From positions 15,116,878-15,180,877 of the forward strand of contig OY829326.1 in the NCBI GenBank assembly GCA_963691655.1: 64,000 nt of DNA, read 5' to 3'. The position numbers and the translations under genes were made by a program. The DNA is from Toxonevra muliebris (taxonomy: Eukaryota; Arthropoda; Insecta; Diptera; Pallopteridae). The notes under the pieces are model-generated. The model was given only the letters and a program-made list of their open reading frames with translations. It searched no databases and was not told the DNA's origin. Positions 1,935-56,085 of this stretch are shown here, in pieces (position 1 is the first letter of the stretch; the number at the start of each line of letters is the position of its first letter).

Positions 1935-3538
1935 CACAGTGGAACAGTTTTTTTGCACCAGAGCAACTCCAAAAAAAACTGAAAGGAGACGTTCCCCTGA
2001 GCACAGCATGGTGTTTGGTTTGGACGTAAGTGGTCATAATTTTGAGATATGACCTTGAGAATATTGTAATTTAACACATGCAAATATTTTTTATTAAGTA
2101 CAGGAAATGAGGTAAAAAGTAGGTATCCGGGGTTTTTTGGGTCGAGGAATCCATTTGTGATATTTATTTTTTTCTACGAATGCCGCTAGAGGTCGCGACT
2201 CAACTTATTTTTTTGGTCAACTTATATAAAATACAGGAAATTAGGTAAAAAGTAGATATCCGGGGATTTCGGGGTCGACAAATCCATTTTTGATATTTAT
2301 TTTTTTCGGCGATTGCCGCTAGAGGTCGCGGCTGAACTAAAAAAACACTGAACAAAACATAAAATTAAGTGTATTTTTGGTTCATAGAACAGTTGATGAT
2401 TTTCTTGTTATGTTTGATTGGTTGCACAGTATCTTGTAAACGGAACTTTTTCACGAGCGAATAACTTGTCAGCAATCGTGAAAAGGAGCTTTCAGCATCT
2501 TAAATACTACTTCAATATTTATGTAACAACTTCTACTGGAATTGCCTTAAACCATTTTCTTTATATTATAAAAGAATATAAATTCTGTGGCGCCACCTAG
2601 CGGTAGTCGTAGCAAAATTTAAATATCAAAAATTAATTTCTTGGCCCCAAAACCCCCTGATACCTAACCTAACCTAATCTAACTTTAAACCAAAATTGGA
2701 TGCAAAAACATAAAAAAATATGTTCAGTGGCGACCTCTAGCGGCAATCTCAAAAAAAAATTAATATCAAAAATGGATTTCTCGACCCCGAAAACCCCCGG
2801 ATACCTACTTGTTACCTCATTTTCTGTACCTTATATAAGTTGACCAAAAAAATATGTTCAGGCGACCTCTAGCGGCAATCTCAAAAAAAAATTAATATCA
2901 AAAATGGATTTCTCGACCCCGAAAACCCCCGGATACCTACTTGTTACCTCATTTCCTGTACCTTATATAAGTTGACCAAAAAAATATGTTCAGTCGCGAC
3001 CTCTAGCGGCAATCGCCGAAAAAAATAAATATCACAAATGGATTTCTCGACCCCGAAAACCCCCGGATACCTACTTTTTACCTCATTTCCTGTACCTTAT
3101 ATAAGTTGACCAAAAAAAATATGTTCAATCGCGACCTCTAGCGGCAATCGCAGAAAAAAATAAATATCAAAAATGGATTTTTCGATCCCGAAAACCCCCG
3201 GATACCTACTTTTTACCTCATTTCCTGTACCTTATATAAGTTGACCAAAAAAATATGTTCAATCGCGACCTCTAGCGGCAATCGCAGAAAAAAATAAATA
3301 TCAAAAATGGAATTCTCGATCCCAAAAACCCCCGGATACCTACTTTTTACCTCATTTCCTGTACTTAATAAAAAATATTTGCATATGTTAAATTACCATA
3401 TTCTCAAGGTCATATCTCAAAATCATGACCACTTACGTCCAAACCAAACACCATCCTGTGCTCAGGGGAACGTCTCCTTTCAGTTGTTTTGGGAGATGCT
3501 CTGGTGCAAGATCGGATATCTCAAAATGTTCCACAGTG
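1935..3538. mobile_element. Foldback-like element with tandem repeats in its inverted arms
   Basis: The outer ~165 bases at 1935-2100 recur inverted at 3370-3538; both ends carry CACAGTGG or its complement. Inside each arm a ~134-bp unit is repeated in tandem. Roughly two copies lie on the left (2100-2345) and five on the right, with TGTTCA landmarks at 2721, 2855, 2987, 3122 and 3256. Each unit carries GCCGCTAGAGGTCGC. A unique centre spans about 2345-2700. Unequal tandem arrays inside long inverted repeats are the hallmark of Foldback/Galileo elements (P superfamily). No transposase frame is visible, so it is non-autonomous. Short frames in the two ends encode the same peptide only because the arms are copies. 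A clear target duplication was not found. Confidence 0.75.
2700..3389. repeat. Five tandem ~134-bp units (right foldback arm)
   Basis: Head-to-tail copies start near 2700 and end near 3389, with spacings of 134, 132, 135 and 134 bases between equivalent TGTTCA positions. Copies differ by single substitutions and small indels; the third to fifth resemble each other more than the first two. The same unit occurs inverted at 2100-2345. Confidence 0.85.
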
Positions 3539-6679: not shown

Positions 6680-7116
6680 CAAGGCCGTATTTTGGGGGGA
6701 TAATTCCCACTGATAATCATTTGAAAAAATTAGCCTCTGAATATTTTTAGCATTATTGGTCATTATTTTAACTTTGGGTAATGGAAAGTCAAGGAGTTAT
6801 CGAATTTATGTCCTTGACATTAAGAAGTGGATTGGAATTCACATTGAATAATATTTATTTGAAAAAATTTAAATTGATGATTCAGTAAATTTTTTGTAAT
6901 TTTCGGCCATTTTTTTTAGGTTAAGATTAAAAAAAAACTCGGAAAGAACAATTCCTAAAGCTTCAAGGCATTTTTCCACTCTTGTTCCTTGACTGATAGG
7001 GTCCATCAAATGCAACATCGTATCTAATTTATTTATTTAAACATCAGTTTCATAAAAATTATTTAAGAATATTTTCTTCGAATGAAACCTCCCCTGAAAT
7101 CCTGGCTACGGCCCTG
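6680..7116. mobile_element. hAT-type MITE with 8-bp target duplication
   Basis: The element starts CAAGGCCGTA and ends TACGGCCCTG, which are inverted. It is flanked directly by the identical octamer AGCTAAAT at 6672-6679 and 7117-7124. An 8-bp duplication and CAGGG-type termini are diagnostic of the hAT superfamily. Its 437 bp contain no transposase frame. A longer, right-truncated relative lies at 33170-34096. The perfect target duplication suggests a fairly recent insertion. Confidence 0.85.
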
Positions 7117-10900: not shown

Positions 10901-11249
10901 TTCATTTACAGTGATATATGTTAAACATCAACTCATTAAACGCCACTTTTATCCTTGGGCTGATTTGAGTGGTTTTCGCAGGAGAAACTTAAATGAAAAC
11001 TGCAAAGCTTTTTGACCTCTTGTTTTGCCGGAAAATGGTGTTGCTTTAAAGTAAGACCGGAAAAATGTGCTGTCACTACAATTACATAATGTGTTTATTG
11101 CGAGAACGAAACTTTCACGTAACTGAAACAATTTTTTACGAGATGTTGGAAAATATTTGAAAACTGTTCATGATTTGGGTTATATGATCATCTACAACTC
11201 TGGTATTCACAGAAGGAGAAGGCTTAATTAACTAAATTACCAATCAGCT
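7980..11249. other. Non-coding stretch rich in simple sequence
   Basis: Contains CA/TG-rich tracts (8755-8790, 10220-10440), an A-run at 9799-9817 and CT-rich patches. The frames at 9881-10105 and 10150-10524 are low-complexity translations of TG/CT tracts. I found no exon, RNA gene or transposon boundary. Confidence 0.5.
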
Positions 11250-11282
11250 ATGCATTCACTTCTTATTGAATCTCTAGAAAAA

Positions 11283-12614
11283 ATGTGGAAAATACTAATT
11301 ATTGCTTGTATTACAATAAATTCCTGCTATGCAGTATTGGAATCTGACGCAGAAACGCTTGTACTCTTAGACAATTTAGCAATAAGCGAAACTCATTCCA
11401 TGTTCTTCAAATCTCTTCAAGAGCGTGGCTTCAAGTTGACCTACAAGCTCGCTAATGATTCTGGGCTTTTGCTTTCACTCTACGGTGAATACTTATACAA
11501 GCATGTGGTTATCTTTGCACCCAGCGTCGAGGAGTTTGGTGGCGAGTTGAGTGTTGAGAAATTGACACAATTCGTTGATGATGGTGGCAATGTATTGGTT
11601 GCTGGCAGCGAACAGTCTGGCGATGCATTGCGTGAGTTTGCTTCAGAGTGTGGCTTTGAAGTTGATGAAGAGGGTGCTTCAGTTATTGACCATCTTAATT
11701 ACGATGTCTCTGATGCGGGAGATCACACAACAATCTTAACATCAGCTGAAAATCTTATTGAGTCAGCAACTATCATAGGAAGCCAAGCGAAGAAAAATGC
11801 CGTTCCATTGTTGTACCGTGGTACAGGACTACTTGCCAATAAGGAATATCTACTTGTGCTTCAGTTACTTACAGCTGAGAGCACCGCCTGCAGTTACAAT
11901 TCTGAATCACCCATCAAAGAGTATCCTCATGCCGTAGGCCGTGGCACCCTACCAATTGCTGCATTGCAGGCACGCAACAATGCACGTGCCGTATTCTCTG
12001 GTTCATTACACTTTTTCTCGGATGAAGCCTTTACTGCTACAGTCCAAAATGCACAGAGTGGAGCATTCCACAAACAAGCTGGTAATCATAATGTTGCCTC
12101 AGCCGTCAGCAAATGGGTATTCGGTGAAAGTGGACGCTTACGTGTAGCCGCTGTTAATCGCCATGAAGAAGGTGAAACACAGCCACCAGAGCAAGCCTAC
12201 ACAATCACTGAACCTGCCGTTTATACTATTACCATTGAAGAATTGGCTCAAGATAAATGGCAGCCATTCAAAGCCAAGGATGTGCAATTAGTGCGCACCA
12301 CACTCAAACCATTGAACGGCGGACGTTATGAAGCTAAAATCAAAATACCAGATGTCTATGCTGTTTACCAGTTCAAAGTAAACTATGATCGCTTGGGCTA
12401 TACACATCTCTACAGCAGCACTCAAGTATCGGTTCGTCCACTAGAGCACACAGAATATGAACGCTTCATTCCGAGTGCATATCCTTACTACACGAGTGCA
12501 GTCTTCATGATGATGGGTGTGTTCATATTCTTATTTGTCTTTTTACATTTCAAGGAAGAAACCACTGCCGCCGCTCTTGGAAAGAAGAGTAAGCGCCACG
12601 AAAATACCGCTTAA
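11283..12614 (+). CDS. Ost48: Oligosaccharyltransferase 48-kDa subunit (Ost48/DDOST)
   Basis: Non-catalytic subunit of the ER oligosaccharyltransferase, which transfers the dolichol-linked glycan to asparagine in nascent proteins. I start at the ATG at 11283 rather than 11250: it has an A-rich context and puts a hydrophobic signal peptide (MWKILIIACITINSCYA) at the N-terminus, giving 443 residues, close to the family length. Landmarks in order: ETLVLLDNLAI, FVDDGGNVLVAGSE (GATase-like lumenal domain), YPHAVGRGTLPIAALQARNN, KWVFGESGRLRV, RPLEHTEYERFIPSAYPYY, then one membrane segment and a short basic cytosolic tail. The frame is uninterrupted by introns. From memory of the family, DIQL should be followed by about eight residues (EFVRIDPF-like) before VRT; here DVQL runs straight into VRTTLK. 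Together with P replacing L in GRGTLPIA, this suggests a diverged, possibly retroposed copy. It could equally be the only gene. Confidence 0.95.
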   Translation: MWKILIIACITINSCYAVLESDAETLVLLDNLAISETHSMFFKSLQERGFKLTYKLANDSGLLLSLYGEYLYKHVVIFAPSVEEFGGELSVEKLTQFVDDGGNVLVAGSEQSGDALREFASECGFEVDEEGASVIDHLNYDVSDAGDHTTILTSAENLIESATIIGSQAKKNAVPLLYRGTGLLANKEYLLVLQLLTAESTACSYNSESPIKEYPHAVGRGTLPIAALQARNNARAVFSGSLHFFSDEAFTATVQNAQSGAFHKQAGNHNVASAVSKWVFGESGRLRVAAVNRHEEGETQPPEQAYTITEPAVYTITIEELAQDKWQPFKAKDVQLVRTTLKPLNGGRYEAKIKIPDVYAVYQFKVNYDRLGYTHLYSSTQVSVRPLEHTEYERFIPSAYPYYTSAVFMMMGVFIFLFVFLHFKEETTAAALGKKSKRHENTA

Positions 12615-20985: not shown

Positions 20986-21746
20986 AGCACCGCTGATATT
21001 TTGAAATTATGTAATATTTTTTTCACTCTGCAAGGTATGTTCAAAATTCCTTCGGAACATTAAAATAGAACAAAATCTGTGGTACAAACGTTATATTAAC
21101 CTTTTTGTACGGCTTCAATAACTACACTTTTTTTACGTTTAGAAAATTCCCAAATTCACTTTTTTCACAAAAACTGTTTTGGATACTCTGTTTGAAACAT
21201 AAGGAATGGCAACAAGTAGGTCTTTCTGTAATAAAAAATTTACAACTGATGTAATATTAACGTGACAGCTGAAACATTTGTACCGTTAGTGGAAAAATAG
21301 CAATACCAATTCATACAATTCCACTGAGTGTAGGGTTTTGAAATCACTTTTATCTACAGTGGCTCACAGTAAAAATGGTCAACCTGTGACCAAACATCTC
21401 GAACTGCAAAAAATCTAGGAAACTAATATAAATACAAAAAAAGTGAGGTGAATTCCATAAGTTCATTTTATTGAAATAATAAATACAAACAAAAAAAAAA
21501 TGATTAATTCAATTGCATTTTTCATAAAAATAAATATTTAGCAAAATAGGAGAAAAATTCATCTAACAGTGAAAATGGTCCACTCTTGCAGAACTGCGAA
21601 AAGTAACGAAACTTTTTCAAAATCTTCTATAGTTTTGATCTGTTTACTTTTATTTACATTCTTATTTTGAAACGAACAAGTGCTAGATCAATTCATTCAA
21701 TTGCTTAGTTCTTAATTTCAAGATGGGCCGCCATACTACGATTTAG

Positions 21747-22440
21747 TTGCGAAATTTAATTTTTGAGCACTATACAGATGGAAAATCTCAGAGAGAAATA
21801 GCTAAAATTGTTAAGATAGCCCGCACAACAGTCGAAAGCATCATTCACCGGTTCAAAAATAAAAATCGAGTTATAAATAAGTCGAAAGTTAGTTCAAAAA
21901 AGCTGTTCAGCGAACGTCAAGAGAGGTGGATTGTCAAACAAATCCAGATTAATCCAAGGCTGAGTACACCGAAACTACGGGATATGGTTGAGAAATACTT
22001 CAAAATAAACTGTAACGCCGAGACCATTCGGAGAGTCCTTCGAAAGGATGGACTAAATGGCAGAATTGCACGCAAGAAACCCTTTATTAGCCTAAAGAAT
22101 AAAAAAACACGATTGCAGTTTGCTCACAGCTACGTTGGAAAAGATTTTTCATTCTGGAAGGACGTCCTATTATAAAAGAATGGCCGCTGCAACGATGCCC
22201 CAGAGTAATCAAAACGCCCCCCCCCCCCCCCCCCCCATCACATGATTTGAATATAATTGAAAATTTGTGGCAGAAACTGGAGATCGAAATAAGGAAATAT
22301 GAGATTTTAAGCAAAGATGGCTTAAAAAGGCCCTTTTGGAGGAATGGGATAAAATAAGTCCGGATTATACAAAAAAGTTAGTGGAATCTATTCCAAATTT
22401 ATTAAAGTCATTTATTCGCCAGAAAGGATACCCAACAAAA
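21747..22440 (+). pseudogene. Tc1 transposase, N-terminal half plus C-terminal tail
   Basis: The frame 21747-22175 encodes the DNA-binding half: a first helix-turn-helix (KSQREIAKIVKIARTTV) and a second paired-like domain with a GRIARKKP linker at the start of the catalytic region. The frame then stops. About 50 bases later, just beyond a 20-base C-run, the reading SHDLNIIENLWQKLE recovers the conserved third catalytic glutamate. The middle of the DDE domain, including both aspartates, is missing, so this copy cannot transpose. A full Tc1 transposase is about 340 residues. The upstream ATG may lie nearer 21723, in another frame. Confidence 0.85.
22217..22236. repeat. Poly(C) tract of 20
   Basis: Twenty consecutive C residues at the deletion point of the Tc1 transposase. 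Such runs are rare in this AT-rich DNA; the only other one is at 33220-33237. Confidence 0.95.
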
Positions 22441-22660
22441 TATTAGGAATCGATTTTTCTATACTTCCTATTTTATTAAATATTTATTTTTGTAAAAAAT
22501 GTAATTGAATTAATATTTTTTTTTTTTTTGTATTTATTATTTCAATAAAATGAACTTATGGAATTCACCTCCCTTTTTTTTGTATTTATATTAGTTTCCT
22601 AGATTTTTTGTAGTCTGAGATGTTTGGTCACAGGTGGACCATTTTCACTGTGAGCCACTG

Positions 22661-25600
22661 TGAATACATTTTTTTCATATGTATAAATAATTTGCATATA
22701 ATTAGCTTTTGTATAATAATAATTTTAATTTTTTTCCAAAATGCGTTCATTTTTTATTTTTGGGTTTACTTACATTTTTTTCTGGTCGCCATTTCAGGCG
22801 CAAAACAAATTTCACGCTTGACTGCTAGTTTAAAAATTATTAAACTGGGTGTGCAAAGTCAAAGAAAAACCACAGCATAAAAAATTAAAGCAAAGAAAAA
22901 TTTTATATACAACATAAATATGTATACATATTTATATAGCAAAGCACAAAGTAGAACTAAAGTCTACTGCTGGTGCTGCTCTACTACATATCCTAAAGAA
23001 GAATATTTGTGTAAGTCAATCGCTTTAATACACAATAGAACAAAATTGTGAACACACAAAACATTGACTGACGTTGCTTGCTTGCTCTTTCTCCCTTTTG
23101 CATTGAGTCTCTTTGGTAAATCACAAATAAAGCCATTGAATGCCTTCAAAATTTCATAGAAAAATTAGACGAGAAAGCACCAAAGTAAAATAAATAAAAA
23201 AAAAACACTGGCTTTTGAAACTGGCGTTGCTTCTTAAATGAAATCCAATAAAGGAAGAAAGAAAAGAACGAATGAACGGATATAGGAAAAAAAAAGAATC
23301 TTTCTATTAAAAATAACTTAATATAAAAATACATAATTCAAAGGATATTTTTTTTTTTGAAAAGCAAGGAAAACGCTAGTCAATAAAAAATGAAAATTAT
23401 AGCAGTCAAACAAAAAAAAAAAACATCATCGATATTATAAGAAGAGTTAAGCAAAAAATAAAAAAAAGATACTGAAAAGTGGCAAATTCTTGGCTATAAA
23501 ATTCAGCTGGGTCAGTTTTAAAGTAAAACAAACATTTTATGTACTTACTTCAATAAATTGAAAAAATGTTTAGATCTTCAAGTGCGCAAGTGAGTCCATG
23601 TGTTTGGGTATGAGTTATTTATGTGGTTGTAAAAAACTGGTTGGGGAAATAAATCTCTACAATAAATCTTCATTTTAAATCAGTTATCATATTAAAGGGA
23701 GTTTTTTCGGGAGCGTATTTAAGCGAGAAAAAAATTTTGCGGACACATGCTAATCAATGAAGGATGTGCAGGAACGAGACAAGGAGAAATTGAGATTAAT
23801 TTCACGTTATACAGCCTATAATGTATGGCAATATATAAACCTAGTCTCCAATATTTAATACTTGAATAAATTTCAAGGATTTCAAATCAAAAACGTCTTC
23901 CACCTGCCACCAAAAAAGTTAGCCTAAACGGCTTACCGTCCCTAACGGAGGAGGAGAGGGGATGGATGAGATCAAACAAGTCATCAGTCTTGTAATTTAT
24001 AAACAAAACATAAATCTCAAATAAATTTCTTGTAATCTATCTACTCGTAATTTTAAAAGTATTTTATTTCCTCTTTAGTTTCTTGATGACTTCACTTGAA
24101 ATATTATTTCTTTTAAATTTTTAAAGTTAAAAACTAAAAAAAAAAACACACACACATTTTTACTATAGCCAACGATTGCTAACACTCTTCATTCAATTTC
24201 GTTTTGTCTGGTCTGTAGCTGGTTTTGTTCTGTTTTGTTTCTCTCTTTTTGCCCTGCAGCAATTCTTTCTTACTTGCACTGCACTTGCACTTGAATGCTT
24301 ATATTAAATTTCTAAGATTGATTCTAATATGATTTTGACCTATTGATTTTTTCCTAGTTACACACACAAACAAGTACAAGTATGAATTTTAATTGCTTCC
24401 AGCTCTTACTTAGAAGCAGCAATTTTTGAAGCAATAATAATAAATAAAATCGTTTTTAATTGAAATGTTGTGTTATTGTATTTGTATACATATACATATA
24501 CACATATGTACATTGCATGAGCTTGAGAAAAAAATATTAAGAAAAATGTTTACATATTTACTTTTCGATTGATTTTTGATATGTAAACAAAAAGCAAAAG
24601 TGAGAAAGAAAAATTCTTATGTGTGCATATATTTTTATTTGTAAGGTTCTTCAAGAAAATAATTGCTTTTCAATTGTTAAGCATTGATTTCTTTGTTAAA
24701 TCTTTCATAATTGTTGTTGGAGTATTATGTTACATGCTGCACAAGGATCCACACATGTCTTTAGAAAAAATCCGCATTTGTTAAAAGAATAAATTGAAAA
24801 AAGGTCTTGGATTTTGCATTTACAAGTATAAGATTAAATTTTTGCAAATAATTTAAGATTTTTTAATAGAATTTAGAGTAATTTACTGATATTTTGTTTA
24901 TTACTTGAAAGCTTTATTACTCTTAAGCTATTTATTGGCCAGGCATTTAAGAGGATCGTTTTACTTACATAGAAAACACAAGCGCAAATTAAATTAACAA
25001 TAAAATTATTATTATTTTTCTAAATAGTCTGACTTCTAAAACCACTACAGACCTCAAAGACTTTCAGAGAGAGTAAACGGTGAAATAGAAATATTTATTA
25101 ACAGGTTACTTCTGTGGCGATTAGTACAAACAATAAAGATATGTCAAAAAGTCATTCATCAGGAAACGTATCGATTCCTAGAAGAATCGATAGTTTACCA
25201 AATAAAAATGTGAGTGTTTGAGCTTTACTTCAAAGACTTTCAGTCCAGAAATTGTGATGGGTTTGGAATATGAGCCTAAGTTGGTACTGAGTTTAATCCT
25301 CATTGGTCCCTCAAAAAATTACCTTAATTGGTCCGTAGTGTATCATATATGATACAATTAATAAAAATGGATTACATCAACACATATAACGTTATTAGGG
25401 ATTACATTTCTTTGAACGAATATAGTCTAGTCGATCTTTATACCATTGCAAAACCATAAACTCGTTTTTCTGGAACAGCTGGTTTCCAAAGTGTTGGGCT
25501 ACGATTGTACAATCTACTTCAATTTTTATATGCATATACTTAATAAGATCTTGTATCTTATTATGAGGCCTTTTTTATGTCATTAACCATTTTTTAATAA

Positions 25601-31280: not shown

Positions 31281-32880
31281 TTCTGTATTTATATTTATAT
31301 TTATATTTATTTATTGGGTAACACAAATTAGTACAATAAGAAACTAGTCTTTTGCTGCACAACAATAGCAAGCAGTACAAACAAGTGGAAGAACTTAAAA
31401 ATAAATTAAAATTAAAGTTAAAAATCACAAATTCAAATAAATATCAAATAAAAGTTAGTTAAAATTAAACAAATTACATTATAATTAAATTATATATTTA
31501 AAATTTAAAAATCAAAAAGTAAAGTAAATCAAATAAAACTCACTGAACATTTAACAAAATTCATTAGCATTAAAAAGATTTTGAAAAATAATTAAAAATA
31601 GAGTTTGTAAATTTAGCTTTGTTTGCAAGTATTTTTATTGCTGCAGGCAAAGAATTCCAAGTTCTTATGGTGCTGATAAAAAATAACCGGCTAGAGTTTA
31701 GGTATTTAAATTCCGGAACGATAAAATCGTTTGTTCTGCTAGATTTTGTAAATTGTAGCTTTTCATACAGATAAGTAGGAGTTTTAGTACGAACAAGATT
31801 ATGCAAAAAGACACAGTTTCTAGCCTTGAAAAAGTTTACAAGGTTACAGTTAAGAATTTTGTTTTTCCAATGAGAAATGTGGTCAAATTTACGCAAACCA
31901 AAAACATACCTAGTCACGTGGTTAAAAGCAATCCGTAGTTTAAGCATAGATGATGAGTCTAGTTCAGGGTAAACAAGCTCAGAATAAGATATCATAGGTA
32001 AAATAAGTTGCTTAGCAAGAGTTTCCTCGTTTCTTGTGGAGTAAAGCTAGCAGATAATCTCAAACTTCTCAGCGCATTATATACTTTACTCACAGTAACA
32101 TTAACGTGATCAACGCAGGATAAACAGGAATTTACAACGAAACCCAAGTTACGGGTTTTATGAACGAAGTTAAGTTGTACCTTATCTATGAAAAGTGGTG
32201 GAATGTCACACACGTTAATTTTACACTTAAATATTGGAAGCACAAACGATTTATTGGCATTAAGGCTAAGGCCATTAGTTGTAGCCCATTGACAAATGTT
32301 TAATAAATCCCCATTAATTCTGAAGCACAAATCTTCGATAAGACCAATACGACGTGAAAGATACAGCTGTATGTCATCAGCATAAGCATGTATGTTAACA
32401 TATTTACACTGCAGGAAAACATCATTAATAAAAATTGAGAAGAGTAGTGGTCCCAGAACTGAGCCTTGCGGTACACCTGAAATAATATTCTTGAAACCAG
32501 AAATAGTATCACCAGCTTTAACACATTGTATTCTCCCACACAAATAGCTACGCAAAAGATTAGTTGCATTGTCACAAAAACCAAATAAAAATTTTAATTT
32601 GTTACAAAGTAATGAGTGATTCACGGTGTCGAAGGCTTTTGAAAAATCTAAAAGGCACAATAAAGTCAGTAAGTTATTGTCATACGAAGTTCGGATGTCG
32701 TCCAAAATTTTTACCATTGCAGAAGAACAACTATGACCAGATCTAAACCCCGATTGAAGAGGACTTAAGAGCTTAAATTTGTGTATCTGTATGCAGTTTA
32801 TTGTAGAACATGTTGAAATATTTGTTTATAAATAGATAAAATTCGTTGAAAATCATCCCATCCATATATGTCTGGTTGGA
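31281..32880 (-). mobile_element. LINE fragment, CR1/Jockey superfamily
   Basis: A 5'-truncated non-LTR retrotransposon on the minus strand. It covers most of the reverse transcriptase and the C-terminal region of ORF2, a ~250-base 3' UTR, and a short (TATAAA)n-type tail at 31281-31310. Simple-repeat tails rather than poly(A) are usual in CR1-like and I-like clades. Homology fades upstream of about 32870. Confidence 0.85.
31570..32810 (-). pseudogene. LINE reverse transcriptase (frameshifted)
   Basis: Coding starts upstream of the visible ATG: bases to ~32805 read LLSPLQSGFRSGHSCSSA, a conserved RT block. Next come LLDFSKAFDTVNH (first catalytic aspartate), GVPQGSVLGPLLF, and HAYADDIQLYLS with the YADD active site. 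The frame 31992-32717 then shifts to 31570-31995, which carries the thumb and C-terminal tail including RTWNSLPAAI. A further frame change occurs near 32800. The core catalytic motifs are intact, but the frameshifts and 5' truncation make it non-functional. Confidence 0.9.
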
Positions 32881-33169: not shown

Positions 33170-34096
33170 CAAGGCCGTATTTAGGGGGGCGGTTTTGGGG
33201 GTTCTAACGCCCCCCCAGTCCCCCCCCCCCCCCCCCCAAATGTGAAAACTTTTTCCTAATTTTTGATATTGATTGCCAGTGGATGGAAAAAAAAGTCAAA
33301 ATAAAATCTATTGAACGATTTTTAAATATTTTTTAATCGGTTTTAAAAATAAATTTGAATTGAAATCGTACGAAGTTGTGCTGCATGGCCAAAAACGGTA
33401 TTTTCAGGGGTTTCAACCCCATTTTTCTAAAACGTGACGTAATGGAAAGTTTTTGACCTCGTGTTCAGTATGAAAAATTCATTCGCAAACACTAGGAACA
33501 ACATTGTTCACCAAACCCATGCAGGACAGTGTTATTGAATAAGCTCCAAAGTTCTTAATCTTAAAATATAATTAATCCTTTAACCCATTATTGCTTAAAG
33601 CACCCGACTCGGAAGATTTCTTTCAATGCTGTGACTGCATGAATTTAGGGAATATATGCCAACCTCATCCGGGATTTTCATCATTGGTAATGGCCCAAAT
33701 TCCCACTGATAATCATTTGAAAAAAATTAGTTTCTGCCTATTTTTGGCATTTTTGATAATTTTTTTGAGGTTGGGCTCATTATCAGTAATGGTAAGTCAA
33801 TGAGTTATCGAAATTATGTCTTTTACGATAAAAAAATGTATTGGAATCCACATTGAATAATATTTATTTGAAAAAATATAAATTGATTATTCTGTGAATT
33901 TTTTTTGTCATTTAAGGCCATTTTTTTAGGTTAAGAAAATTCGGCAACAAAAATTTTTCCTAAAGCTTTAAAAGATTAATCCACTTTTCTCCCTAGTCTG
34001 ATAGGGTCCATCAAATGCATCGTCGTATTTAATTCATTGTAGTTAAACATCAGTTTCATAAAAATTTTATATGAATATTTTCGTCGAATGAAATAA
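33170..34096. mobile_element. hAT-type element, sibling of 6680-7116, right end lost
   Basis: Starts with the same CAAGGCCGTATTTAGGGGGG-type terminus. From 33701 to 34096 it follows the 6680-7116 copy closely (shared landmark GATAATCATTTGAAAA). Bases 33200-33700 are extra sequence absent from the shorter copy, including poly(C) runs. The right terminus and target duplication are missing. The short copy is therefore probably a deletion derivative of a longer family member. Confidence 0.7.
33210..33237. repeat. Poly(C) runs (7 and 18)
   Basis: Seven C's at 33210-33216 and eighteen at 33220-33237 near the left terminus of the hAT-type element. They are preceded by G-runs (33184-33206) that could pair with them. 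Confidence 0.9.
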
Positions 34097-34370
34097 TGAG
34101 AGACTTTGAGTGTGTGATTGTCAATGCTGTGACTTTTCATTTTTGATAGTAATATGACAAAGTGTAAATCTCAATATGTTTGAACAAAGTCAGAACAGTA
34201 GACAAAAATGCTTCTATGATAGTTTTTTAGGAGACAATGAAAATTAAATCTAGAGGTTAATTTTCAAAGTCATGACTTAAGTTCATGTCAATTTCGTTAT
34301 TTGAAGTTATATATAAACAGGTTAATGAACAAATGTAGTCATCACAACAACAATGTATATAGAGACGGGC

Positions 34371-34419
34371 AAATCAGACGGCCGTTTCGGAATCCGCCAC
34401 AATTCCTCATCAGTGATCT
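34371..34419 (-). ncRNA. Type I hammerhead self-cleaving ribozyme
   Basis: All parts of a hammerhead are present in order on the minus strand. Stem I 5' strand AGATCA (34419-34414); core CTGATGA (34413-34407); stem II GGAAT (34406-34402) with loop TGTGGCGG and partner ATTCC (34393-34389), giving the canonical G10.1-C11.1 closing pair; core GAAA (34388-34385); then CGGCCGTC to 34377; stem I 3' strand TGATTT (34376-34371), pairing six for six with one G-U. Stem III is the palindrome ACGGCCGT, with cleavage expected after C at 34377 (GTC site). So short and self-complementary a stem III is known from Penelope-like elements, retrozymes and satellite hammerheads that act as dimers. No Penelope reverse transcriptase was seen nearby, so the parent element is inferred. 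Confidence 0.85.
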
Positions 34420-34424
34420 TAGTT

Positions 34425-36720
34425 ACAGTTCTTAATCTTTCAATATCCCATATAATATATACTATAATATATAATATACTAATATATACTAATATTCTTT
34501 ACAATATATACTTATACTTAGATACCATCTCATTTTTATGATTCTAATACGCCATGTGGCGATGGAAAATTTCAAATGATAAGGGAAATTGGCTTTTCAA
34601 TACCTTCCAAATAAAATTAATTTTGTTAAATTCTGAAATTACGACCTATTTCTTCCGAAATTTCTATTTTTCTTAAATATATATACTTTATCAAGACGAA
34701 TTTTTGTAAAGTTTATTTATAATATTTCTAAGATTTTTTTCCCCTTCTTTTTTATTGGTTTTTGTTTAACTTAACCACGGTGAAAAATTCGAATTAAAAA
34801 TATTAAATTTTTTGTATTTTACTTATTTCCAAATTAGTTTAAACTTAAAAAAATCGTACAACGCTTTCAATTCCTATTAATTTCTGAACTTTTTAAACTC
34901 TGTTCGCAGAAGAAAATTCAAACGAAAAATTCTTTAACTTTATTTACCAAAAAAACTATGAAAGTAAAGTTTCTCAACAGCATTTCCTCTTTCAGGGTCT
35001 AAAATCAAACCCCATGCCTACAAAATGTGTCGCACAGTGTAACCAAAGTAACTTTATTTATTCGAAATTAGGTAAGTATGGTAGGTAAATTGGTTTAAAA
35101 TAGTATACTCACTCATAGATATTGACCTGTAAATAAACAGAAATTTAAGATTATTAAAAATTTATATTTAATTACAAAATATTGAATGAAATAAATGATA
35201 AAGCTTCAATAGTAAAATGGTGTATCGCATAAGATAAAATACATCAAAACTTGAAAGAAAAAATTAAAACTTGGATTTTACCAAAGAATTCTGAAAGAAA
35301 AATATTCAAAATTTTGTTTTACTTCGATATTTTTCTACTTGTTTGTTTACTCATCATCTTCAATGGCATCAAATTAAGATATAAAATTTAAGCTTTGAAG
35401 CAAAAATATTACATAATCTTCAAATGCCCTTATTTCGTTATCGCAAAAATATACTATGGCAGACAACTTCGTCAAATTAAGACAGAAATGTAGTGCAATA
35501 TTAGAAGTTAACAGAAAGAAAATTGTATAAAATCTACTACGGCATCATCTATATTAACTCCAGGGTTTTTCAGACTAAAAACAAGCATATATGTAACCAC
35601 TTTCAATTTAGACATATGTAAAGTTTTCAACGAACAAACTAAGCAAATAAGAAAAGGCACACAAAGTGTAGAAGTTTGTTTTTTGTTTTTTTTTTTTTTT
35701 TTGTACTTTTGTTTTGAGCACACAAAACGCATTCATGTGCGTATGAATGCTACTCATTTTTACACTTTAATGCACCACTAAAGATGCATAAATACCCAGA
35801 GAAACACATACTCAAACACCCGAACACTTCAAATGCTTACAGCAGCACCACCACAAATACAAGCAAACAAACAAACAAACAAATGCATGGAAATATCAAA
35901 CAAACAAAACACTTTACTATGAAAATTGTTCAAAAAGAATAAAATAATGCGCCCGAAATGGCAAGCATGGCACACACAAACTTATATTTACCACTACAAC
36001 CATCTGCATCTCCATCTGTGTATGTGTGTGTGTGTATACGCATATTTTTACCCTTTAACACAAAACTGACTCACTTGTTGTTCTTGTTGGACGGAACGCG
36101 ACACGCTCGCATTCGCGTATTCTAAGGCACCAAAGGATGCAACAGTTTTTACGCTTATTTTCCTTGTAAGCAGCGTTTGCTTTTGCTATTGCTTTGCTAG
36201 AGTTTTTTCTCATCTCTTTTTTTTTTTTTGCATAGAAACGAAAACACACAATTTTTTTTTTTTTTTTTTGTAATACTCTTTTAGTATTGCGTAGTAATTA
36301 TACACTCAAATGGATGTAAATTCATACGCACTCATACACACATAAATACCACAATTTTATGTGAAACCTTTTTATAATTATTATTTCTCGTTTGTGGTAT
36401 CGTTGCAATTTAACGAGAGGAGAGTGAGTATCAAAGTATATAAGTGATCGCCTTTTTGTTATTGTAATTAATAATAACTGTTTAATTAAATAAACTTTTG
36501 GTTTTTTTTTTTTTGTGTTTAATTTACAAAAATTTATTTATATTGCAATTAATTTGTTTAATGTAAGTAAAATAAAAATTTTCCTTAAAACAAAAATAAA
36601 AATTGTCCTTAAAAATTCTAAAGAGATTTTATTGCACAATTATAGTAATGCATTACACTGCCACCTTACCATATAAATAGATAGCAAAAATGTGTTCGGG
36701 AACTTCATGAGTGTGCACAG
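34425..36720. other. AT-rich stretch, nothing coding recognised
   Basis: A TA-rich block (34445-34520) lies directly beside the ribozyme; CA and CAAA tracts follow (35770-35890), with a TG run at 36020-36035 and long T-runs near 35685 and 36250. No PLE, LINE or host exon was recognised. Confidence 0.5.
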
Positions 36721-52203: not shown

Positions 52204-53222
52204 GTGATGAGAGCGGCCTACAGACTCCGGTTAATTGGAGTCTGGCATGTCGAGGCGGATGTAGGGCACAGTATGATATACCACCAGTTGTCAGAACAGT
52301 GCCCACTGTTTTTGATGCATGTGTCTTGCATTCGCTTCGGAAGAAGATATGATGTCAGGTTCCGAAAACGTAATCAATGGTTAAGTCCAGAGGTCGTACT
52401 CCGGGGTCTTCGTCATGCCTTCTTTAAGGAAGGATCTAAAACCTCAAACTGTACTGGATCCGGTTGGTACTTGGACGATGTGACCAAGTACTCTTTTTTC
52501 ACTGGAAAGATGGCGTTAGTTTTCCTTACGGAGGTTTTCACTATCCTTGACGTGGCGGGCTGGGTAATTGAGAAGAAATGGCATCTGCAGTAATAGCCAA
52601 GCAGCACTGAAGGCCCTTGCTAACCCTGTCAGCTCCTCAAAATTGGTCAGCGAGTGTAAGGCAAAACTAAATAGTGCTGCAAAACAAGTTATGCCTTATA
52701 TGGGTTCCAGGACACTGTGGTATTGCAGGGAATGAACTAGCTAATGAAGGCTCTGCAATTGCACCATGGGGTCCGGAAACTTTTCTTGGCGTAAATTATG
52801 GGGAGATCATGCGTTGGATTAACAATTTCGTGGGTTCTATCCATAGAGAAAGATGGTCCGAGCTTGACTTCTGCAGAAACGCAAAGTGCTTCGTAAGGCA
52901 ACCTAACATGAAAATTGCAGAACTTCTTCTAAAACTGAGAAGAAAGGGCCTGAAATTACTAGTAGGTGTCACTACAGCCCACAACCCATGTGGTCAGCAT
53001 ATAACTAACATAGGCGTCATCACCCATCCAATTTGTCAATCGTGTCTTAAGGACGACGATACTACGGAGAATTATCTTTGTAGCTGTTCGGCGTTCACGA
53101 GAATCAGATTCAGGCTGTTGGGTAGTGAAGTCTTGAGTATGAACAATGCGAATACTCTCCCTCTTCCTGAGCTTCTAAGGTTCATTAGTGAAACAAAGAA
53201 GTTCGAGGTTGAGAGACCCTAG
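52204..53222 (+). pseudogene. LINE ORF2 C-terminus: RNase H and zinc knuckle
   Basis: The frame 52204-52593 carries FKEGSKTSNCTGSGWYL, an eroded start of RNase H in which the usual TDGSK aspartate is E. A shift near 52590 passes SQAALKALA, and the frame 52674-53222 continues with LIWVPGHCGIAGNELANE. It ends with a CxxC...C tail (ICQSCLKDDDTTENYLCSC) and LPELLRFI near the terminus. Loss of catalytic acids and at least one frameshift make it inactive. RNase H plus this tail points to I- or LOA-type LINEs. Confidence 0.85.
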
Positions 53223-53345
53223 ACCTTTCTTCTTCCCATTTATCCCCACATAACTTTCCTGTCTCTCTACTCTCTTCTACTGGTTCTATCCTTGGGTATA
53301 GCACAATGGTCCTCGTGACTGAGTGCTTTGGTTAAGTTCAGCCCG
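52204..53345 (+). mobile_element. LINE 3' fragment with RNase H (I/LOA-like)
   Basis: 5'-truncated non-LTR retrotransposon. It begins in the region after the RT (AAYRLRLIGVWHVEADVGHS), continues through RNase H and a cysteine-rich tail, and ends with a ~120-base 3' UTR whose last shared bases are CAGCCC near 53345. A nearly identical 3' segment lies inverted at 55590-56085. Confidence 0.85.
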
Positions 53346-55589: not shown

Positions 55590-56085
55590 GGTGGGCTGGA
55601 CTTAATCATAGCACTCAGTCAGCGAGGACCATTGTACTATACCCAAGGATAGAACCAGTAGAAGAGAGTAGAGAGACAGGAAAGTTATGTGGGGATAAAT
55701 GGGAAGAAAAAAGGTCTAGGGTCTCTCAACCTCGAACTTCTTTGTTTCTCTAATGAACCTTAGAAGCTCAAGAAGAGGGAGAGTATGGACATTATTCATA
55801 CTGAAGACTTCACTACCCAACAGCCTGAATCTGATTCTCGTGAACGCCGAACAGCTACAAAGATAATTCTCCATAGTATCGTCGTCCTCAAGATACGATT
55901 GACAAATTGGATCGGTGATGACGCCTATGTTAGTTATATGCTGACCACATGTGTTGTGCCCCGTGATGACACCCACCAGTAATCTCAGGTCCTTTCTTCT
56001 CAGTTTGAGCAGAAATTCCGCTGATTTCCTGTTAGGTTGTCTCACGAAGTACTTTGCGGTTCTGCAGGAGTCAAGCGGACATTTG
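55590..56085 (-). mobile_element. LINE 3' fragment, inverted copy of 52204-53345
   Basis: Minus-strand copy starting in LDSCRTAKYFVRQPN, then LLKLRRKDLRLLVGV, the cysteine tail (ICQSYLEDDD, with one cysteine replaced by tyrosine) and LLELLRFIRETKKFEVE. The same 3' UTR follows and ends at CAGCCC near 55590. In the 3' UTR, ~88 compared bases differ from the plus copy at one position. It is truncated further than its partner. Confidence 0.85.

Follow-up and report, generated by a model that had tools for sequence, protein, structure and literature searches.

The window, by which we mean the whole stretch of 64,000 nucleotides that was analysed, contains an OST48 open reading frame at 11232-12614, which is 70-77% identical to the higher-fly proteins listed among its matches and has a pseudoscorpion record (54%) as its top match by E-value. 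Judged by this gene, the host would be a higher fly. On the minus strand, two reverse transcriptase (RT) open reading frames lie at 31570-32825, one of which (31992-32825) matches RVT_1 and the other of which has no Pfam match. Their named relatives include a Rhagoletis jockey-like protein (60% identity over 66% of the query), and the pair appears to be the remnant of a jockey-like non-LTR RT split across frames. Apart from that RT, a six-frame Pfam scan of 12.6-56.9 kb returned only pieces of DNA-transposase and HTH sequence and a weak PHD match.

Several other repeats share the window. A satellite with units of ~134 bp occupies 1953-3509, with a tandem run at 2712-3371 (4.9 copies) and inverted relatives at 1953-2337; a Tc1-like transposase piece (21747-22175) sits between 93%-identical inverted repeats at 21356-22661; and 52862-53344 and 55593-56076 form an inverted repeat pair, 92% identical and with similar open reading frames, of which that at 52671-53222 has no Pfam match. 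Two copies of a further, unrelated repeat, 80% identical and in the same orientation, lie at 33698-34093 and 6702-7087, and by eye their ends resemble the inverted termini of a DNA transposon. Between the copy at 33698-34093 and the element described below lie about 120 bp, and this repeat was rejected as part of the unit.

A minimal hammerhead in the window

The minus strand at 34371-34419 reads, base for base, as a complete minimal type I hammerhead ribozyme, and this observation is confirmed as real (Table 1). From 34419 to 34371 its segments run AGATCA-CTGATGA-GGAATT-GTGGCG-GATTCC-GAA-ACGGCCGT-C-TGATTT. The first-pass annotation had claimed here, outside any recognised gene, every conserved core base (CTGATGA, GAAA, A15.1-T16.1 and C17), a 6-bp stem I, a 5-bp stem II and a self-complementary stem III, and each of these is found on the minus strand where it had been placed. 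GAAA occupies 34388-34385; stem I (AGATCA/TGATTT, 34419-34414 with 34376-34371) forms 6 bp including one G-U, and stem II (GGAATT/GATTCC) has five Watson-Crick pairs and an extra, sixth U-G pair below the loop GTGGCG. The element ACGGCCGT, at 34385-34378, is indeed palindromic. The defining parts of a type I hammerhead are therefore present (CUGANGA...GAAA core, A15.1-U16.1, H17, stems I-III, open helix I), its assignment to type I following from the order of the strands. As for its location, no host exon was recognised by Pfam in six frames across 12.6-56.9 kb, and an intronic hammerhead was rejected for that reason within the range scanned. A role as the 5' ribozyme of the RT at 31570-32825 was also rejected, as among named proteins that RT comes nearest to a jockey-like one and the hammerhead stands in a separate repeat.

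Table 1 Features of the hammerhead-bearing copy, in window positions
Feature	Position	Strand	Evidence
5'-truncated unit fragment	34216..34455	-	unit 446-487 then 1-198; BLAST
3' end of window copy	34216	-	unit ~198, distal of two 3'-end clusters
Minimal type I hammerhead ribozyme	34371..34419	-	R1 34.3 bits, E=7.5e-9; RF00163 23.8 bits
Stem I 5' strand AGATCA	34414..34419	-	sequence
Catalytic core CTGATGA	34407..34413	-	sequence
Stem-loop II GGAATT-GTGGCG-GATTCC	34389..34406	-	sequence; present in predicted fold
Catalytic core GAA (G12, A13, A14)	34386..34388	-	sequence
Palindromic stem III ACGGCCGT (A15.1 to U16.1)	34378..34385	-	sequence; monomer and tandem fold energies
C17, predicted cleavage 3' of base (unit 37/38)	34377	-	sequence
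Stem I 3' strand TGATTT	34371..34376	-	sequence

A chance motif was ruled out by simulation, by a prokaryote and viral null and by a covariance model, which upholds the earlier judgement that such a combination is very unlikely to arise by chance in 64 kb. When 4000 windows of 64 kb were simulated and the exact CTGATGA core was required, none (0/4000) held a stem I of at least 6 bp together with a stem II of at least 5 bp; four strand scans passed at limits of 5 and 4 bp, and 38 passed the loosest setting. The pattern CTGATGAG-N6-20-CGAAACGNNCGTC, with an 8-nt stem III, was sought in prokaryote contigs (257 billion bases) and in IMG/VR. It had 62 exact matches other than the window (61 in prokaryote contigs and 1 in IMG/VR), and in none of them did stems I and II both reach 4 bp, against 6 and 6 in the window. 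The covariance model R1 was built from 24 hand-picked hammerheads of viral contigs, the window motif being excluded; it gave the motif 34.3 bits, with an E-value (7.5e-9) that is rough. The members of R1 were chosen for an exact core. The runner-up in the window scored 11.8 bits, so that no second hammerhead came near the motif, which stands alone there.

A covariance search of the minus strand had been suggested as a check, and its outcome was divided: R1 recovered the motif, and RF00163 left it below the gathering cut-off. Given 81 bases, RF00163 aligned over its whole length (model 1-45/45) with 23.8 bits (E=3.2e-4) against a cut-off of 34; given 401 bases, it did not report the motif at E<=10, and Rfam at gathering cut-offs had no match for it. 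This gathering negative is weak, because in a control of 7 viral loci Rfam at gathering likewise reported no hammerhead, though 5 of them pass the descriptor. Genome-wide, RF00163 returned 0 matches, which is uninformative, as it was silent in every control genome too. In IMG/VR, at least 40 hammerheads were present among 120 viral stretches (stem I of at least 4 bp, stem II of at least 3 bp and a 10-12-nt stem III segment).

Structurally, ACGGCCGT offers a monomer a stem III of 2 bp with a GGCC loop, and a dimer one of 8 bp. Such a palindrome is, in its sequence, ordinary among animal type I hammerheads: the consensus stem III of RF00163 is itself palindromic (ACGcgCGU), and the legend of Figure S8 in PMC3088659 notes a palindromic stem III/loop III in Aedes aegypti and in a number of others. 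For the Aedes aegypti hammerheads the palindromic stem III has been proposed to act as a dimer (PMC3088659). None of 40 descriptor-passing viral hammerheads had a palindromic stem III. The predicted monomer hammerhead lies at -5.0 against a minimum free energy (MFE) of -11.2, a gap of 6.2 kcal/mol. When two hammerhead copies were joined by an artificial 12-nt linker, the tandem double hammerhead reached -27.3, compared with -11.0 for two monomer hammerheads and an MFE of -27.6 (0.3 kcal/mol gap). On paper, therefore, the dimer is favoured over monomers. Dimer activity of the window hammerhead would, by this modelling, be plausible. In monomer, two-strand and tandem calculations the hammerhead was not the lowest-energy fold, other pairings winning; the 61-nt hammerhead stretch was no more stable than its shuffles (z 0.25), and a long outer stem I, when sought, was no better than shuffles.

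An abundant family in arrays and fragments

To place the motif in its genomic context, we searched the window's own assembly (491,410,580 bases in 96 contigs). With 34300-34520 as query, the best 40 of 408 candidates were scored and all 40 match; the window aside, they are 98-99% identical over query positions 1-156 or 2-156, and many are spaced at 483-488 bp. The first-pass annotation had proposed this search and had guessed at tandem repeats of ~300 bp: the copies are there, in tandem, and the unit is larger than supposed. The 30-mer core (CTGATGA to GAAAC) occurs exactly 1727 times (865+862) in the 491-Mb genome and 0 times in a reversed control genome. Of the first 100 listed of these 1727, 65 stand singly and the other 35 are distributed over 11 same-strand arrays (by eye), so that the family exists in tandem arrays and also as dispersed fragments. 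The window alone, where the hammerhead is the sole one and no surrounding genes are recognised, might have suggested an isolated motif, arisen by chance or domesticated as a dispersed-type animal hammerhead, with no mobile family behind it; the 1727 exact cores and the arrays elsewhere in the genome refute this reading, which keeps next to no probability.

Complete units measure 483-488 bp and each contains the hammerhead; nine of the sampled arrays hold at least two complete units. We number the unit from the C of CTGATGA (position 1), which puts the cut at 37/38. One unit, folded as a circle, is predicted at -126.7 kcal/mol, against a mean of -87.3 and a lowest value of -101.3 for 30 mononucleotide shuffles. 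The window copy is a 240 bp piece; BLAST against a single unit of array L191 gives 99.5% identity for positions 1-198 and 95.2% for 446-487. Copies were sampled as 18 stretches from the best 40 of the 408 matches (L191-L208), as loci from the 100 listed of 1727 exact cores, where arrays and two inverted pairs were given precedence (L209-L228), and as the first 40 loci of a 24-mer anchor list (100 listed of 1559 places; L229-L268). Eleven of the last group overlap loci of the first two groups, and the samples are therefore not independent. Best-match lists favour young copies; older ones are present too (L220 82%, L224 87%). One array flank consists of masked N.

Within seven of the nine arrays the units show no difference at all; L215 has one and L191 up to four. 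Between arrays, units differ in 0-16 alignment columns (mean 7.9, 622 pairs). The partial units at array ends are identical to their own array on the 5' side in 6/9 cases and on the 3' side in 7/10, the exceptions being L191 (102 mismatches), L206 (1) and L215 (191) at the 5' side and L191 (1), L206 (3) and L212 (1) at the 3' side; this comparison was ungapped, and the values of 102 and 191 may be length shifts. L193 has no 5' partial unit in the compared stretch. The units within arrays look as if one RNA circle had been copied repeatedly, and rolling-circle reverse transcription of one circle predicts arrays of identical units. Recent unequal exchange or tandem duplication would be other possible sources of identical units, and the assembly may have contributed to the identity. 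L210 and L212 have an identical unit at different loci, and identity is therefore not unique to one array.

Conservation between copies was followed in 33 copies found through a 24-mer outside the hammerhead (of 55 anchor sites, 15 did not extend across all of the hammerhead, and 7 units in arrays were merged). In 17 of the 33 the window hammerhead is reproduced without a change, and 5 have, by eye, a core lesion. Changed cells number 7/429 in the core versus 28/858 in the flank (44-69), and C17 (changed in 2/33) and the stem III bases (8/198) do not fall below this flank rate. The conservation of core bases in other copies, which the first-pass annotation had named among its tests, is thus seen mildly in the core taken as a whole and not in C17 or the stem III bases. 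The evidence that these counts give for constraint is weak. The majority of copies are probably non-functional from the outset, with neutral decay thereafter.

Insertion ends and the Penelope-like alternative

The ends of the copies point to how they were inserted. In a first count, of L191-L228 and the window, 45 chains of at least 150 nt were kept (8 of 53 were shorter and were dropped), and their 3' ends fall at unit 80-124 (24 chains) or 183-206 (21 chains), with the 5' ends of the same 45 chains scattered over unit 1-446. A second count, of 44 chains from the 40 loci chosen by the 24-mer outside the hammerhead, with chains below 100 nt or less than 30 nt from the stretch end dropped, placed 15 3' ends at 99-124, 27 at 190-206, one at 71 and one at 487. 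The two clusters have their centres near units 115 and 198, some 78 and 161 nt beyond the cut and ~80 nt from each other. Arrays L210 and L212, which have the same unit sequence, yet end at ~201 and ~117, and two ends therefore need not mean two subfamilies. The 3' ends do not lie at the hammerhead cut (37/38) and so, on their own, are no sign of ribozyme action. Flank strings of at least 8 nt are shared in 10/45 copies versus 70/1980 mismatched pairs, and in the anchor-chosen sample in 10/44 versus 81/1892; the longest reach 12-15 nt, in 5 copies of the first sample, and flanking repeats are detectable in fewer than a quarter of copies. Opposite-orientation pieces touch or lie at most 60 bp apart in 8/40 loci. 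Inverted 5' pieces of this kind occur in Penelope-like elements (PLEs) as well.

Clustering at the 3' side, scatter at the 5' side and flank strings shared more often than in mismatched pairs together indicate target-primed reverse transcription. They also bear on the idea of satellite DNA that spread by unequal exchange and DNA-level movement with the hammerhead as a passenger. Near-identical units in tandem arrays are what such a satellite would give; the ends and flank strings, and the predominance of single cores over those in arrays among the 100 listed, speak against it, and we regard it as very improbable.

PLE hammerheads are said to have been described by Cervera and de la Pena in 2014 and by Lunse in 2017. 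PLE pseudo-LTRs carry minimal type I hammerheads, and PLEs occur in tandem or partial tandem (PMC7761336, PMC11167929). A PLE has further been described to start reverse transcription at two internal RNA sites, both mapped biochemically, which explains an optional genomic tail (PMC11167929). On this view the fly unit would be a pseudo-LTR belonging to an autonomous PLE, with the copies as its 5'-truncated insertions; the fly family likewise has two 3'-end clusters, partial tandems and close opposite-strand pieces. Against this, one unit follows directly on the next within the arrays, leaving no space for an ORF, and among the 100 listed of 1727 cores none (by eye) shows the same-strand spacing of 2-4 kb expected of a pLTR-ORF-pLTR layout. 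In L213, two inverted copies are separated by 2.4 kb in which Pfam has no match at E<=0.01. GIY-YIG had no match in six frames of the window at 27-42 kb, where the RT is the jockey-like one.

A GIY-YIG search of the genome, which could miss a divergent PLE, gave 13 candidates and 2 matches, and found no intact PLE. One match is SLX1, a host nuclease. The other, L272 (G000:C2:62218000-62222499), has RVT_1 and, downstream in another frame, a GIY-YIG stretch that scored 28.3 bits in the genome search and was not reported at E<=0.01 in the Pfam scan; from the order of RT and GIY-YIG, our reading is that it may be a broken Penelope-like copy. Across the 10 kb around L272, BLAST does not match the unit and R1 scores nothing above 8.8 bits. 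Copies flanking a GIY-YIG or Penelope RT, which the first-pass annotation had suggested looking for, were thus not found among those read, the one PLE-like copy identified through GIY-YIG lacking both unit and hammerhead within its 10 kb. On this evidence, drawn from a sample of the 1727 copies, a PLE remnant is improbable. Of the two readings originally offered, the independent small retroelement is supported, through its 1727 cores, arrays and ends, with circularity as an inferred part of it, and the Penelope-like remnant is not, with no GIY-YIG at 27-42 kb.

A retrozyme-like element and its proposed copying

The window copy is, in our view, very probably what is left of a small retroelement that carries a hammerhead, is non-autonomous and belongs with the animal non-LTR retrozymes. 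This kind of element is already known, animal retrozymes having been discovered by Cervera and de la Pena 2020 (PMC7229834), and the abundant higher-fly family would be a member of it. In line with that account (PMC7229834), the fly element has a type I hammerhead per unit, head-to-tail repeats and a low GC content (33.6% in one unit, under the retrozyme limit of 45%); its unit is, moreover, predicted to pair strongly with itself. It differs in its unit of 483-488 bp, slightly above the 150-450-bp repeats quoted (PMC7229834), and in having no detectable outer stem I. The two 3'-end clusters with scattered 5' ends belong to the fly element and are not among the features given for retrozymes in the part of that source consulted (PMC7229834).

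With PLEs that carry pseudo-LTR hammerheads, the fly element shares a minimal type I hammerhead, (partial) tandems and two 3' ends downstream of the hammerhead (PMC7761336, PMC11167929); unlike them, its unit has no RT or GIY-YIG, and its 3' ends lie ~80 nt apart, compared with the PLE tail of 30-40 bp quoted there. The hammerheads in interspersed repeats of Aedes aegypti (Perreault et al. 2011, PMC3088659) are, by their description, likewise dipteran and repeat-associated. Fly genomes contain further hammerheads, of type III and related to HDV-like agents (PMC7936874); these have a different topology, that of the window being type I. The open-licence literature speaks of animal retrozymes in insects in general terms, and we found in it no higher-fly family with such ends.

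The fly element is most likely copied from RNA circles. From the motif, copy number, arrays, unit identity, ends and flanking repeats, all of which were observed, we infer cleavage, circles, ligation and an enzyme, as follows. Arrays of 483-488-bp units would be transcribed, and their hammerheads would cut the multimer 3' of C17, a step that they would probably perform better when paired as dimers. Circles one unit long would then be sealed by a ligase of the host. The reverse transcriptase would come in trans, start at a nicked target and at an internal RNA site about unit 115 or 198, and copy either a fraction of one circuit or many circuits. This would leave insertions with random 5' ends, some holding only part of a unit and others an array of units without differences.

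As to the enzyme, it has been proposed that the RNA circles of animal retrozymes are copied by LINE or PLE enzymes, with PLEs as a strong candidate (PMC7229834). That a Penelope-like enzyme mobilises the fly element is our boldest guess, and on the present analysis a tentative one. Stated more generally, and as speculatively, animal retrozymes might be parasites of Penelope-type reverse transcription, which would act on circular RNA from two fixed internal initiation sites and go on to rolling-circle cDNA. If synthesis began at two sites of a circle produced by self-cleavage and went on as rolling-circle cDNA, this would explain, in one family, the two 3' ends, the scattered 5' ends, the arrays of identical units and the inverted pieces. 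If true, Penelope-type copying of retrozyme circles would have genomic evidence for a route that, in the source as available, has so far only been proposed.

How animal retrozymes move is a question for which an abundant fly family with near-identical copies gives footprints that can be put to the test. These footprints are the defined ends, the arrays that look like products of a single template, and two 3'-end sites like those described for a PLE (PMC11167929). The fly may also be a more convenient animal to study than corals, mussels or axolotl.
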